From Candidatus Manganitrophus noduliformans (GTDB lineage: Bacteria > Nitrospirota > Nitrospiria > SBBL01 > Manganitrophaceae), in the NCBI RefSeq assembly GCF_012184425.1, contig NZ_VTOW01000001.1:1612001-1676000 (forward strand): a stretch of 64,000 nt of DNA, written 5' to 3'. Positions 43,898-50,804 of the stretch are shown here, piece by piece. The notes beneath the pieces are model-generated. The model was not told the DNA's origin. It ran no database searches and saw only the letters and a list, made by a program, of their open reading frames with translations. The stretch's first letter is position 1. Each line of letters opens with the position of its first letter. The translations under genes and the position numbers were made by a program.

Positions 43898-45112
43898 CTA
43901 ATTCATTCTCCCCTGCATTTTCGGTGTCCACTCATCGACCCCCCCCTTTTCTCCCAGCCAGAGGTGCCGGTCGGCATCGATGGCGATCGCATAAACATGT
44001 TCGTTCGTCAGCCCCTCGCGGGGGGTAAGGTTCATCCACTCTCGGCCGTCGAAGCGGGAGACGCCGTGGTTGGTCCCGAACCAGATCGCCCCGTCGGCCG
44101 GATCGACCGTGATCGCATAAACGATGTTGCCGGCGAGACCGTCATCCGTCGTGTAGTTCTTCCAGGTCGCGCCGTCGAAGCGGGCGGCGCCCCCTCCCCA
44201 CGTTCCGAACCATTTGTTCCCGTCGCGGTCGATTGCCATCGAGAAGACATAATTTTCATTGTAGGTTTCGTTGCCGCCCGGATCGAGGATCGAGAGGTCG
44301 TGCCGGTGTTTGTAGTCGTCCATCTCCGATTTGGAGAGGGTGCCGAAACCGGTGTTCTCGCTCCGGGTCAGTCCCAGCTTATTGGGCGCCCCGAGACCAT
44401 CCTCGTGGCGCCATGTCTTCCAGTTTCCTTGCGGGTCGAGGCGGCTGACCCCTCCCTCCGTTCCGAACCAGACCGATTGGTCCCGATCGATCGCCAACGC
44501 ATAGACCCATCGATCGGCCAAGCCGTCTTTGGTGTTGTAATTTTTGAACGTGGTTCCATCAAACCGGCTGACCCCGTTCCAGGTGGCGATCCAGGTCGTC
44601 CCGTCCGCGGCGAAGTCGATTCCGTAGACCCAGAAGTCGGCGAGGCCGTCGGAGGGAAGGTAGGTCTTCCAATCTTTCCCGTCAAAGCGGCTGATTCCCC
44701 CATTGTTGGTCCCGAACCAGTGAACCCCCCTCGGGTCTTTCTTCATCGTGAAGATATAGGGGCTCTTCAATCCATCCGCCGTCGTGTAGGTTCCAAGGGC
44801 TTCTCCGGTGCGCCGGGCGACCTTGATGATCCCTTCGGAGGTCCCGACCCAGAGAAAATCACCGTCCGCCAGAAGCGAGCGGACGTAACTTCCTTCACCG
44901 GTGCTGAAACTCCCCGTCAAAAGGTAGGGGCCGCCCCTTCCATGCGGCGGAACTCCCGGAGGAAACGACGGAGCGACTTTCCGCTCTTCCGTAACAGGGG
45001 CCGCCTGCGGAAGAGTCGGTTTTGGGTTGACCTGATTGGGATCGCGTCGACAGCTGATAAGGGAGAGAATCAGAAAGGCGAGCAACAGGGGAAGTCCGAT
45101 GCCCCGGTTCAT
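43898..45112 (-). CDS. Beta-propeller lipoprotein (Reg_prop repeats)
   Basis: This 404-residue protein begins with a lipoprotein signal (lipobox LSLISC) and a proline-rich linker. About six or seven blades follow, built on units such as VWFGTEGGVSRLDPQGNWKT and WFGTNNGGISRFDG ending in DGLA. These are the periplasmic sensor repeats of two-component regulator propeller proteins, but no kinase domain is attached. Being a surface-anchored propeller among haem genes is odd. It shares one base with the hemA stop and is clearly in the same transcript. Function unknown. Confidence 0.8.
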   Translation of the reverse strand: MNRGIGLPLLLAFLILSLISCRRDPNQVNPKPTLPQAAPVTEERKVAPSFPPGVPPHGRGGPYLLTGSFSTGEGSYVRSLLADGDFLWVGTSEGIIKVARRTGEALGTYTTADGLKSPYIFTMKKDPRGVHWFGTNNGGISRFDGKDWKTYLPSDGLADFWVYGIDFAADGTTWIATWNGVSRFDGTTFKNYNTKDGLADRWVYALAIDRDQSVWFGTEGGVSRLDPQGNWKTWRHEDGLGAPNKLGLTRSENTGFGTLSKSEMDDYKHRHDLSILDPGGNETYNENYVFSMAIDRDGNKWFGTWGGGAARFDGATWKNYTTDDGLAGNIVYAITVDPADGAIWFGTNHGVSRFDGREWMNLTPREGLTNEHVYAIAIDADRHLWLGEKGGVDEWTPKMQGRMN

Positions 45113-47386: not shown

Positions 47387-47415
47387 ATTATAGCCGTTGG
47401 TCAAAAGGGTGTCAA
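47387..47415 (-). promoter_or_regulatory. Perfect sigma-70 promoter for the ccsA-hem operon
   Basis: On the - strand TTGACA (47,415-47,410) and TATAAT (47,392-47,387) are exact consensus hexamers with a 17-bp spacer. It drives the long - strand run. The resulting leader before ATG 47357 is only about 20-25 bases, so little room exists for attenuation. Confidence 0.88.
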
Positions 47416-47469: not shown

Positions 47470-47499
47470 TTGACAAAGAATCGGTGAAAGTGATAGATT
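47470..47499 (+). promoter_or_regulatory. Sigma-70-like promoter for the first bifunctional-nuclease gene
   Basis: TTGACA (47,470-47,475) is exact and is followed after 18 bp by TAGATT (47,494-47,499). The two divergent promoters in this 183-bp intergenic region (47,358-47,540) are separated by about 55 bp. Confidence 0.6.
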
Positions 47500-47540: not shown

Positions 47541-47996
47541 ATGTTGGTCCAGATGAAGGTGCGGGGTCTCATGTTTGACCCCTATAATAATGCCTATATT
47601 ATTATTCTTCGAGACGAAGAGAATACCGAAGTGTTGCCGATTTGGGTCGGAAAGCCGGAGGCCAACGCCATCAGCCTGGCGTTGGAAGGGGTGTTTACCC
47701 CCCGCCCGATGACCCACGACCTCATCAAAAATGTCTTGGATTCCCTCGATGCGAAGATCATCAGCATCGTTGTAACCGACCTAAAAGAGAATACCTATTT
47801 TTCAAAAATTCATCTCATGTACGGCGATTCTGAATTCACGATCGACTCCCGGCCCAGCGATGCCATTGCCCTGGCGCTTCGCGTCGATGCCCCGATCTTT
47901 GCGACCGAAGGGGTCATCAAAAAGCAGAGTTCCGAGGAATTGGACCGCTGGCTGGAGAATCTCCGGCCTGAAGATTTCGGGAAGTACGACACCTAA
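47541..47996 (+). CDS. Bifunctional nuclease family protein (BFN, DUF151), first copy
   Basis: This 151-residue protein consists of one BFN domain: LMFDPYNNAYIIILRDEENTEVLPIWVG, ALEG near residue 55 and SRPSDAIALALR. Members have been described as having DNase/RNase activity in plants and bacteria. ATG 47541 has GGGAAGGA upstream; the in-frame ATG 47553 is also possible. A second copy lies at 49,306, with a JAMM protein and a lipoprotein between them. Confidence 0.85.
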   Translation: MLVQMKVRGLMFDPYNNAYIIILRDEENTEVLPIWVGKPEANAISLALEGVFTPRPMTHDLIKNVLDSLDAKIISIVVTDLKENTYFSKIHLMYGDSEFTIDSRPSDAIALALRVDAPIFATEGVIKKQSSEELDRWLENLRPEDFGKYDT

Positions 47997-48079
47997 GCGG
48001 GCGGCATCGATCTCCTATCAAATTCAAATGTATGATCGTATAAAGAGTGGTATGATGATCAGCGGAAGAGGGGGGAAAG

Positions 48080-48610
48080 GTGCAGGTCTATCTCAACGAA
48101 AATGTCTTCATCGGTTTAATCCTCTCTGCCGTGGAAGTGTACAAGAAAGAATGCTTCGGTCTCCTCTTGGGCTATCGTAACCCCGATAAGTTCATTGTCG
48201 AGCATGCGATCCCCTATCAAAGCGTCAAGCGGGGCCATAGCTGGACGGAGCTGCGGCCTGAAAAGTGGCGAATCATTACGGAGGTCCTGAAGAATTTTCC
48301 GAAATTGGATGTCATCGGGGACTTCCATTCTCATACAATGTACCGCGATATCCGGGCGCACGTCACCCTTAGCTCGGAAGATATCCAATACATGGCCGAC
48401 GATGATCTCCAGATCGTCATTGCAATCAACGAGAACAAGCGGTCGCGGTCGAGACTTTTTCAGTTTGACCACACGGTCTCGGGCTCGCTCGACAAGTATC
48501 AGTTTAAGATTGCAGCCTATTATTTTGAAAACGGCCGCAAGAATGGGAACAGCCGTCCCAGGCTTGCGGAAATATGGGGTCCTCTCTCCACAAGAATAGA
48601 GCGGGTATAA
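48080..48610 (+). CDS. JAMM/MPN metalloprotease-like protein
   Basis: This 176-residue protein shows the JAB1/MPN pattern: a glutamate in ECFGLLLGYR, then the metal motif HSH at residues 83-85 in IGDFHSHTMYRD and a downstream SSED. The spacing from HxH to S-x-x-D is longer than the usual JAMM motif (about 10 residues instead of 7), so activity is not certain. The GTG start has GGGGGGAAAG upstream. The 83-bp gap before it contains no clear promoter. It lies between two BFN genes. Confidence 0.7.
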   Translation: MQVYLNENVFIGLILSAVEVYKKECFGLLLGYRNPDKFIVEHAIPYQSVKRGHSWTELRPEKWRIITEVLKNFPKLDVIGDFHSHTMYRDIRAHVTLSSEDIQYMADDDLQIVIAINENKRSRSRLFQFDHTVSGSLDKYQFKIAAYYFENGRKNGNSRPRLAEIWGPLSTRIERV

Positions 48611-48640
48611 ATGAGACTTTCACCGGAAAATCCTCCGATC

Positions 48641-49234
48641 ATGAAACGAACATTCCTCTTTTTTATATTTGGTTTTTTATTTTTCGGGTGCGTCGGCATC
48701 GACGACCTCTCCCGGGAGGACTACCGCAGGGGGGTTCTTTATACCAGTAGTCTTTCAACGGAAACGATCGCCGTCATGCCGATGGTCGGACGGGGGGCGA
48801 ACCGCGACTATACGAAAACGGCCGAGAAGATCTTCTACCGGGCGCTGACCGAAATGCGGCAGCAAACACAGTTGATTTCACCTGAAGAGGGGCGCGCCAG
48901 AGTTGAAGCGAGCAATCTCGGTCCATTGCTGGAACGACTGAAGAAAGAATTGTCGTTTAAAAAGGTCGCCGAAGAGAAGGATGTCGCCGAGCTAAAGAAG
49001 GTCTTCGGAACGCGCTTTCTCCTGCAGACCGAATTGCAACAGGTAGAGGTGATTGAAGGGGCGACACACGTTCGCCTCCAAGGCCGGTTGTGGGATATTG
49101 AAATGGGCGATATCATCTGGGAGGGAACGGGGGAATCGAGAGGATATCTCTTTCTCTTTTTCCCGCGCATTCCGGCCAGTTTCGAAAAAGCGGCGGAGGT
49201 GGCGAGCCGAGGTCTTATTAAGCGGCTGCCGTAA
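48641..49234 (+). CDS. Putative lipoprotein of unknown function
   Basis: This protein of about 197 residues starts with a signal ending in the lipobox FFGC. The mature part is a mixed alpha/beta domain (TIAVMPMVGRGANRDYTKTAEKIF, VFGTRFLLQTELQQVEV, LQGRLWDIEMGDIIWEG) reminiscent of CsgG/LpoB-type envelope lipoproteins. ATG 48641 gives a clean signal peptide; ATG 48611, which abuts the JAMM stop, is the alternative. It would sit in the periplasm; its partner is unknown. Confidence 0.65.
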   Translation: MKRTFLFFIFGFLFFGCVGIDDLSREDYRRGVLYTSSLSTETIAVMPMVGRGANRDYTKTAEKIFYRALTEMRQQTQLISPEEGRARVEASNLGPLLERLKKELSFKKVAEEKDVAELKKVFGTRFLLQTELQQVEVIEGATHVRLQGRLWDIEMGDIIWEGTGESRGYLFLFFPRIPASFEKAAEVASRGLIKRLP

Positions 49235-49305
49235 GCGATCATTACGGAAGGCGCCGGGTTGGCGACGTCGATGAGCAAAGAACCTAGGAAGGCAGGGAGT
49301 CAGAG

Positions 49306-49788
49306 ATGAATATCCCACTGAAAGTGCACGCGGTGGTCTCCGATCCGAATACGGAAGCACAGATCGTCATCTTAAAGGATGAACAGAACGTGGAGCTTCT
49401 TCCGATTTGGGTGGGGACGACCGAAGGAAACGCGATCCGATTTGCGCTGGAAGGGATCGTCCCGCAGCGTCCTCTCACACATGATCTTCTGCGAGACCTG
49501 TTGACCCATCTGAGCATTCAGATGGAAAAGATCGTCATTCATGATCTCAACAACAATACCTATTTCGCGACCCTTTATCTGGTGCATCGGCGGACATCGG
49601 AGCAAGAGGGAACAGGCTCCGGAGAGTTTACGATCGATGCCCGACCGAGCGACGCCATTGCGTTGGCCCTTCGCGCCGGGGTTCCGATCTATGTCACCGA
49701 AGAGGTGCTCCGAAAGAAGTCGTCGGAAAATTTGGACGAGTGGCTCGAAAGACTCAAACCGAAAGATTTCGGCTCCTACAATGCGTGA
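49306..49788 (+). CDS. Bifunctional nuclease family protein (BFN, DUF151), second copy
   Basis: This 160-residue protein is a paralogue of the product at 47,541. Matching blocks are AQIVILKDEQNVELLPIWVG, ALEGIVPQRPLTHDLL, DARPSDAIALALRAGVP and KPKDFGSYNA. It has a short insertion (HRRTSEQEGTGSG) before the SRPSD-like block. The ATG has AGGGAG upstream. A promoter for rplM follows the gene. Confidence 0.85.
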   Translation: MNIPLKVHAVVSDPNTEAQIVILKDEQNVELLPIWVGTTEGNAIRFALEGIVPQRPLTHDLLRDLLTHLSIQMEKIVIHDLNNNTYFATLYLVHRRTSEQEGTGSGEFTIDARPSDAIALALRAGVPIYVTEEVLRKKSSENLDEWLERLKPKDFGSYNA

Positions 49789-49836: not shown

Positions 49837-49865
49837 TTGACAAAAGACCGATCATTGTATAAAAA
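49837..49865 (+). promoter_or_regulatory. Sigma-70-like promoter for rplM-rpsI
   Basis: TTGACA (49,837-49,842) is exact. The -10 is either TAAAAA at 49,860-49,865 with 17-bp spacing or TATAAA at 49,858-49,863 with 15-bp spacing. It is 36 bp upstream of the rplM ATG, so the leader is short. Confidence 0.6.
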
Positions 49866-49900
49866 TACACTACTTTACAGCGTTTAAATGAAGGATAAAG

Positions 49901-50353
49901 ATGAAAACAACGGCAGTGAAAGAGTCCGATATTCAGAGAAAGTGGTTCGTCGTTGATGCGGACGGCAAGGTCTTGGGTCGCATGGCGACGCAAGTTGCGG
50001 CGGTTCTTCGTGGAAAGCATAAGCCGGTTTTTACTCCCAACCAGGACCTCGGAGATCATGTGGTCGTCATCAACGCGGCGAAGGTTGTTTTGACCGCCGG
50101 CAAAGCGGTCAAAAAGAAATATTATCACCACAGCGGTTATATGCGGGGGGGACTGAAGGAGACAAACGCGGAGAAGATGCTGCGGGAGAAGCCGGAACGG
50201 CTTGTCACCTACGCGATTGCCGGAATGCTCCCGAAGACCAAGCTTGGCAAGGCGATGGCGAAGAAATTGAAAGTCTATGCCGGGCCCGACCATCCGCACC
50301 AGGCGCAGCAACCACAAGCTTTTGCAGTAAAAGAAAAAGAAAGGGGTTCATGA
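49901..50353 (+). CDS. rplM: 50S ribosomal protein L13
   Basis: This 150-residue primary rRNA-binding protein of the large subunit has the normal blocks WFVVDADGKVLGRMATQVAAVLRGKHKP, GDHVVVINA, KKYYHHSGYMRGG and AIAGMLPKTKLG. The rpsI start overlaps its stop by ATGA. Confidence 0.97.
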   Translation: MKTTAVKESDIQRKWFVVDADGKVLGRMATQVAAVLRGKHKPVFTPNQDLGDHVVVINAAKVVLTAGKAVKKKYYHHSGYMRGGLKETNAEKMLREKPERLVTYAIAGMLPKTKLGKAMAKKLKVYAGPDHPHQAQQPQAFAVKEKERGS

Positions 50354-50748
50354 TCATGGCGGCAACCCGTTATTTTGCCACAGGAAAGAGAAAGAACGCC
50401 ACCGCGCGGGTTTATTTGGAGCCGGGAGAGGGGAAGATCTTGGTGAACGGCAGGCCGTCGGATGAGTATTTCCCCCGCCAAGCCTGGAAGTATCTCCTCA
50501 TCCAGCCCTTCCAATTGACGGAGACGGTCGGACGATACAACGCCGTTGCCACGGTTCATGGCGGCGGACTGACCGGCCAGGCCGGCGCGCTCCGTCACGG
50601 CATCTCCAAGGCCCTCTTGGAAGCGATCCCCCAATCACGGACCGCTTTAAAGAAAGAAGGATTGCTCACCCGCGATCCGAGGGTCAAAGAGAGAAAAAAG
50701 TATGGGCAAAAGGGAGCCCGCAAGCGGTTCCAATATTCAAAACGGTAA
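50350..50748 (+). CDS. rpsI: 30S ribosomal protein S9
   Basis: This small-subunit protein has ATGKRKNATARVYL, GEGKILVNGRP, VHGGGLTGQAGALRHGISKAL and the conserved C-terminal KKYGQKGARKRFQYSKR that reaches into the ribosomal P site. ATG 50350 overlaps the L13 stop; ATG 50356 also fits. A strong terminator follows. Confidence 0.97.
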   Translation: MIMAATRYFATGKRKNATARVYLEPGEGKILVNGRPSDEYFPRQAWKYLLIQPFQLTETVGRYNAVATVHGGGLTGQAGALRHGISKALLEAIPQSRTALKKEGLLTRDPRVKERKKYGQKGARKRFQYSKR

Positions 50749-50774: not shown

Positions 50775-50804
50775 GGGAAGGTCGAAAGACCTTCCCTTTT
50801 TTTT
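50775..50804 (+). terminator. Rho-independent terminator after rpsI
   Basis: A 9-bp stem GGGAAGGTC/GACCTTCCC with a GAAA tetraloop (50,775-50,796) is followed by eight T residues (50,797-50,804). It should end the rplM-rpsI transcript. Confidence 0.95.

Follow-up and report, generated by a model that had tools for sequence, protein, structure and literature searches.

In Candidatus Manganitrophus noduliformans, two paralogous genes of the DUF151 or bifunctional nuclease family (BFN1 and BFN2) enclose a gene for a JAMM/MPN+ metallopeptidase-like protein and a lipoprotein gene. The association between JAMM and BFN is real and old, but lineage-bound. We lean, tentatively, towards interpreting the arrangement as an old, vertically inherited housekeeping operon, in which a JAMM protein with a lengthened active-site loop would be functionally tied to BFN1.

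Results

All four genes lie where a previous sequence-only reading had placed them, on the same strand of the window (by which we mean the whole 64,000-nucleotide stretch of DNA analysed) and followed by rplM-rpsI. BFN1 (47541..47996, + strand, 151 aa) and BFN2 (49306..49788, + strand, 160 aa) both match Pfam BFN_dom (PF02577; 2.2e-39 and 2.8e-38, respectively), which, with a mutual identity of about 51-54%, bears out the paralogy that had been claimed for them. Between them are the JAMM gene (48080..48610, + strand, 176 aa, with a GTG start) and the lipoprotein open reading frame (48611 or 48641 to 49234, + strand), leaving gaps of 83, 0 and 71 bases, of which the zero applies only if the lipoprotein starts at 48611. 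A further gap of 112 bases separates BFN2 from the start of rplM at 49901; rplM (L13) and rpsI (S9), recognised as open reading frames in an order shared with many relatives, occupy 49901..50748 (+ strand) and are likely to belong to the same transcription unit as BFN1-JAMM-lipoprotein-BFN2, with which they would share a transcript. Upstream of BFN1, ccsB and hemA are divergently oriented. A consensus scan placed promoter-like sites 5' of BFN1 (47470..47499, + strand; TTGACA-18-TAGATT, with TG before the second hexamer) and in the BFN2-rplM gap (49837..49866, + strand; from the scan only), but it returned 6 sites against 2.8 expected in shuffles, which is not evidence of function. A terminator-like site lies 3' of rpsI (50775-50796). 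On the minus strand, ahead of ccsB-hemA, there is a perfect TTGACA-17-TATAAT match at 47387-47415, and beside hemA the interval 43898-45112 (- strand) encodes two-component-regulator propeller repeats behind a lipoprotein-like start.

The JAMM protein scores 24.0 bits against Pfam Prok-JAB, just under the cut-off of 25, and 25.1 together with its neighbours in the genome scan; relatives pass the cut-off (L035 with 31.3 bits and L024 with 27.6 bits), and no NCBIfam model fits the window protein or the three distant relatives scanned. A confident AlphaFold (AF2) model (pLDDT 82.3, pTM 0.83) predicts an Rpn11/JAMM fold. It aligns with Rpn11 (4owp_B; Z 16.9, rmsd 2.6, 140 aligned, by VIA-align) and with the Caldiarchaeum Rpn11 homologue (6fnn_B; Z 16.6), and its close fold matches include Rpn11, BRCC36 and Pyrococcus JAMM1. 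The active-site motif comprises E24 and H83-S-H85-x12-S98-x-x-D101 (HxHx12SxxD), in which E24, H83, H85 and D101 are invariant across all 24 aligned JAMM rows and S98 is present in at least 90%. The window protein is 98% identical to a copy on CP114561.1 (Candidatus Manganitrophus sp. GAC4).

The canonical JAMM spacing is HxHx7SxxD, and the spacing of this protein had been singled out as unusual. It is indeed so, being x12 against the x7 of CSN5 (from the PDB alignment) and of three further JAB proteins encoded in this genome, and it is a trait of the whole family: x12 is found in 46 of 46 distinct JAMM relatives, 43 with Ser and two with Gly as read by script, plus L028, in which a lazy pattern matched x10 but the sequence also reads x12. 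The two rows in which Gly replaces the active-site Ser are both Myxococcota copies (L019:2537-3064 and L020:6001-6531), and that of L020 has two SPFH/Band 7 genes just upstream.

With known JAMM/MPN+ metallopeptidases (Pfam JAB PF01398 and Prok-JAB PF14464; Rpn11, BRCC36 and Pyrococcus JAMM1) the window protein shares its predicted fold, the active-site Glu, HxH, Ser and Asp, and the minimal size of a stand-alone domain. It departs from them in its x12 spacing, in its sub-threshold Prok-JAB score and in having no NCBIfam model; it reads HSHT where CSN5 and the JAB protein of a ThiF cluster read HSHP; and, unlike the known systems, it has no ubiquitin-like, E1 or proteasome gene adjoining. Judged from sequence, the long-loop (HxHx12SxxD) proteins would form an uncatalogued and distinct subfamily of the known JAMM kind, and we class them as a variant.

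In the lipoprotein, the lipobox Cys is invariant in all 12 aligned homologues, and the lipobox of the window copy, LFFGC, is loose relative to the canonical pattern. Two start codons are available, ATG 48611, which abuts the JAMM stop, and ATG 48641, from which the signal peptide more probably begins. No Pfam match to this protein exceeded the cut-off, a profile of the 12 homologues searched against the PDB returned only 5t11_A (E 0.96), and a structural model built from an alignment of four near-identical rows (pLDDT 39.3) is too low for use.

Both BFN proteins carry full-length DUF151 domain matches (134.2 bits for BFN1 and 130.6 for BFN2 against PF02577, cut-off 27), as do the other members of the family such as TM0160, Rv1829 and the plant BBD proteins, and the alignment of BFN1 to TM0160 spans 126 residues (phmmer 1.3e-27). 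The putative site of TM0160 consists of Thr57, His58 and Asp115, and the T-H and the D are retained in both window copies. Across a set of 55 rows, the Asp motif RPSDA is universal (55/55) and the Thr-His motif RPxTH[DE] is present in 45; of the ten exceptions, nine are BFN2 copies in relatives, in which Ser replaces the Thr, and the tenth is a BFN1 that has Ala. In a tree of these rows (74 places reduced to 55 by requiring matches of at least 100 aa and removing identical sequences), BFN1 and BFN2 separate with 100/100 support. The window differs from TM0160, Rv1829 and the plant BBD proteins in having two tandem paralogues within one operon-like set, and neither copy has a UVR or HCR domain in the Pfam scan, in contrast to the plant proteins trapped by CLPC1, which carry an extra UVR. 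DNase and RNase activity is reported for the plant proteins BBD1 and BBD2 in a 2020 paper, which gives the exact molecular function of the DUF151 domain as unknown (PMC7249048); the 'nuclease' label of the window BFNs is inherited from plant homologues.

PF02577 occurs in 143 of 146 genomes of the Nitrospirota class to which the window (genus Candidatus Manganitrophus) belongs. Pair spacing was counted in a chosen set of 54 of these 146, and in 47 of the 54 the two BFN genes are on one strand and no more than 3 kb apart, adjacent without a gene between them in 32, with room for one gene in 10 and for two in five. No close pair exists in G006, G007, G008, G010, G024, G028 and G128, three of which (G006, G010 and G128) have their copies on separate contigs. 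As tallied without G027 and G036, the slot between BFN1 and BFN2 holds JAMM alone in three genomes (G019, G023, G032), the lipoprotein alone in five (G021, G022, G026, G030, G034) and both in another five (G000, G003, G004, G005, G020). A lipoprotein gene is also found 3' of the single BFN1 in G008 and 5' of BFN2 in G006 and G010. Overall, the lipoprotein gene is present in six families (f1, f2, f4, f8, f9, f10) and the JAMM gene in four families of the class (f1, f7, f8, f11). As the sequences indicate, the BFN pair is an old, class-wide duplication of an ancestral DUF151 gene. Because they share the same slot in separate families, we infer that JAMM and the lipoprotein were ancestral to it, and both genes appear to have been lost from it repeatedly. 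The idea of a linked set is upheld, but 'four-gene module' is too strong a term, since the core is the BFN pair, the JAMM and lipoprotein genes are separately dispensable, and all four have been seen together in two families, f1 and f8. The rplM gene is directly downstream of BFN2 in 11 of the 20 class regions fetched first; this link is present in f1, and was not seen within the fetched flanks of f7, f8, f11 and f10.

JAMM was detected in 10 of the 146 class genomes, single-sequence and profile searches agreeing, and not in the other 136. In all ten it is linked to BFN, although contig ends cut the JAMM loci of G001 and G002 on one side; in G002 JAMM and BFN2 are separated by a lipoprotein gene. 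In a wider sample of the phylum, the JAMM profile matches 66 of 295 genomes; four weak matches (G215, G177, G289 and a second copy in G277; E 4.5e-11 to 6.7e-7) and one that is marginal, the second in G161 (E 7.8e-4), were not taken as family members. Outside the class, all seven strong matches in family f23 have a single BFN 3' of JAMM, followed by a deoxyhypusine-synthase-like gene, and in the BFN tree the f23 copy groups with BFN1 and not with BFN2. There are thus two gene orders, BFN1-JAMM-(lipoprotein)-BFN2 and JAMM-BFN-deoxyhypusine-synthase-like.

Among 61 JAMM places, some of them fetched twice, a BFN gene is present in the fetched flank at 27 and absent from it at 34. These reduce to 46 rows in the JAMM tree (matches of at least 100 aa, identical sequences removed, and the truncated JAMM of G002, L022/L120, left out), in which all 15 BFN-linked rows fall into one clade with support of 97/90, and none of the remaining 31 has BFN beside it. 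One BFN gene is located elsewhere in 51 of 52 unlinked JAMM-bearing genomes, adjacency having been read directly only where loci were fetched. Since BFN is found in nearly all genomes (143/146 and 51/52), mere co-occurrence of JAMM with BFN adds nothing. The outcome foreseen as adverse to the set, BFN genes apart and JAMM unlinked in relatives, is not found in the nearest clade, whereas JAMM genes without BFN do occur in more distant relatives.

Purifying selection is strong. The dN/dS values are 0.023-0.038 for JAMM (four comparisons), 0.010-0.033 for BFN1 (three orthologue comparisons), 0.048 and 0.055 for BFN2 and 0.060-0.115 for the lipoprotein (four comparisons), and with the exception of the lipoprotein they are on the level of rplM and rpsI. 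Comparisons were left out where tblastn had picked a paralogue (BFN1 with L022, BFN2 with L014) or dS was saturated (BFN2 with L083).

Across the genome, ThiS-type and ThiF-type genes score over cut-off at four places each, none inside the window. One cluster elsewhere (G000:C1:1303000-1312000, L143), in which two genes of ThiF type and two of ThiS type accompany a canonical Prok-JAB gene (HSHx7SxxD), is likely to be a sulfur-carrier (CysO/Mec-like) locus. Mec/CysO-type proteins are the JAB peptidases of sulfur-carrier clusters; the window JAMM resembles them in being a stand-alone bacterial JAMM protein, and differs in having no carrier or E1 gene nearby. There are also two pairs of JAB and ThiF neighbours with the motif HSHGxxxxxxSxxD outside the window (G000:C1:1151340-1152177 and G000:C7:85734-86593), which are reminiscent of PRTRC-type plasmid genes.

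Discussion

An ancestral DUF151 gene would have duplicated to give BFN1 and BFN2, placed ahead of rplM-rpsI in many members of the class, and a stand-alone long-loop JAMM and a lipoprotein would have resided between them, to be lost in many lineages. The JAMM protein would be a catalytically active, cytoplasmic zinc (iso)peptidase, working on or together with BFN1, perhaps by processing BFN1 itself, a protein bound to it, or a small-protein conjugate. Since the putative DUF151 active site in TM0160 is described as built from two subunits (PMC7249048), BFN1 and BFN2 may form a heterodimer. The likely role would be in RNA or protein quality control linked to translation rather than in defence; the strong purifying selection and steady chromosomal position of the genes argue for a housekeeping function. 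Observations in favour of this reading include the single 97/90 clade that holds all BFN-linked rows, the two gene orders, the grouping of the f23 BFN with BFN1, the intact catalytic residues and JAMM fold, and the adjacency of the BFN pair in most of the 54 genomes counted. The reported enrichment of plant DUF151-UVR proteins with a trap of the chloroplast unfoldase CLPC1 (PMC8889267) fits a link between DUF151 and proteolysis by analogy, despite the extra UVR domain of the plant proteins.

The same tree also lends itself to a different interpretation, because a single ancestral juxtaposition could be the source of every linked case. It is quite possible that BFN1 and JAMM are neighbours by inheritance only, kept together by chance and shared transcription, and that JAMM has a job of its own as it does in unlinked relatives. 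Every linked case does fall in one clade, and neither gene needs the other, given that 31 of 46 JAMM rows have no adjacent BFN and that no JAMM of this family was detected in 136 of the 146 class genomes; JAMM is missing from most class genomes that retain the BFN pair. Moreover, unlinked relatives sit in unrelated contexts: a GalT-USP-JAMM-FAD oxidoreductase neighbourhood in the unlinked Nitrospirota copies inspected, SPFH-JAMM-DUF6588, and VWA/ABC genes in Acidobacteriota. What such an account explains less readily is that the link has outlived both the rearrangement that distinguishes f23 from the class in gene order and a deep sequence divergence (JAMM identity of about 60-65%), while other neighbours changed. 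A further alternative, that JAMM frees a small beta-grasp protein from the cargo to which it is joined, as ubiquitin-like or sulfur-carrier deconjugases of the CysO/SAMP type do, is suggested by the close fold matches to Rpn11, BRCC36 and Pyrococcus JAMM1 and by the ThiS-type and ThiF-type genes of this genome. We regard it as improbable. Those genes are all outside the window, and a canonical JAB gene is already present in the ThiF/ThiS cluster, so that the window JAMM is probably not the sulfur-carrier peptidase; with two more JAB genes beside ThiF genes, other proteins probably perform the role usual for a bacterial JAMM. The altered x12 spacing would, in addition, suggest a different substrate cleft.

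The sequence-only reading had itself suggested a stress or phage-defence module made up of a nuclease, a protease and an envelope protein. The enzyme types are compatible with this, and PADLOC models give weak generic JAB matches to the JAMM protein (E 0.0013 and 0.0058), but none to BFN1, BFN2 or the lipoprotein. The constant, ancestral location next to hemA/ccsB and rplM/rpsI, which many relatives share, dN/dS values of about 0.03, and the loss of components singly rather than as a unit are all at odds with defence, and on the grounds of location, selection and PADLOC we reject a defence module; the suggestion as a whole seems to us very improbable indeed. For a role in stress, the one hint is that distant JAMM relatives have a universal stress protein gene as a neighbour.

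A bolder extension of the housekeeping reading, and in our estimation a rather unlikely one, is that the locus represents an undescribed bacterial proteolytic partnership, in which a long-loop JAMM would act with DUF151 proteins as adaptors or substrates in protein or RNA quality control, these not being free nucleases, and BFN1 and BFN2 would form a composite two-subunit site. If true, DUF151 in bacteria would acquire an enzymatic partner, and there would be a connection to the capture of plant DUF151-UVR proteins by CLPC1. The open-access literature searched contained no paper joining JAMM with bifunctional nuclease, or linking the JAB/MPN and DUF151/PF02577 families, nor any joining 'bifunctional nuclease' with Nitrospirota-type names ('Nitrospir') or with rplM. 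DUF151 is widespread in bacteria, archaea and plants, and a conserved neighbour whose fold is recognisably that of an enzyme provides a handle on the function of the domain. The long-loop JAMM proteins can be delimited as a subfamily on which structural and biochemical studies could be based.

The long-loop JAMM is found in Nitrospirota, Myxococcota, Acidobacteriota and one Stahlbacteria MAG, and two of its settings recur. The run of GalT-like, universal stress protein, long-loop JAMM and FAD oxidoreductase genes is seen at L025, L026, L027, L035 and L097-L115, that of L035 being close to parA-parB. At L017:2701-6337, L021:1680-5344 and in the f23 genomes, the JAMM-BFN unit runs into polyamine-type genes (deoxyhypusine-synthase-like, arginase-family and pyruvoyl arginine decarboxylase); in L017, a named relative, the arginase-family and arginine decarboxylase genes follow the JAMM-BFN-deoxyhypusine-synthase-like run.
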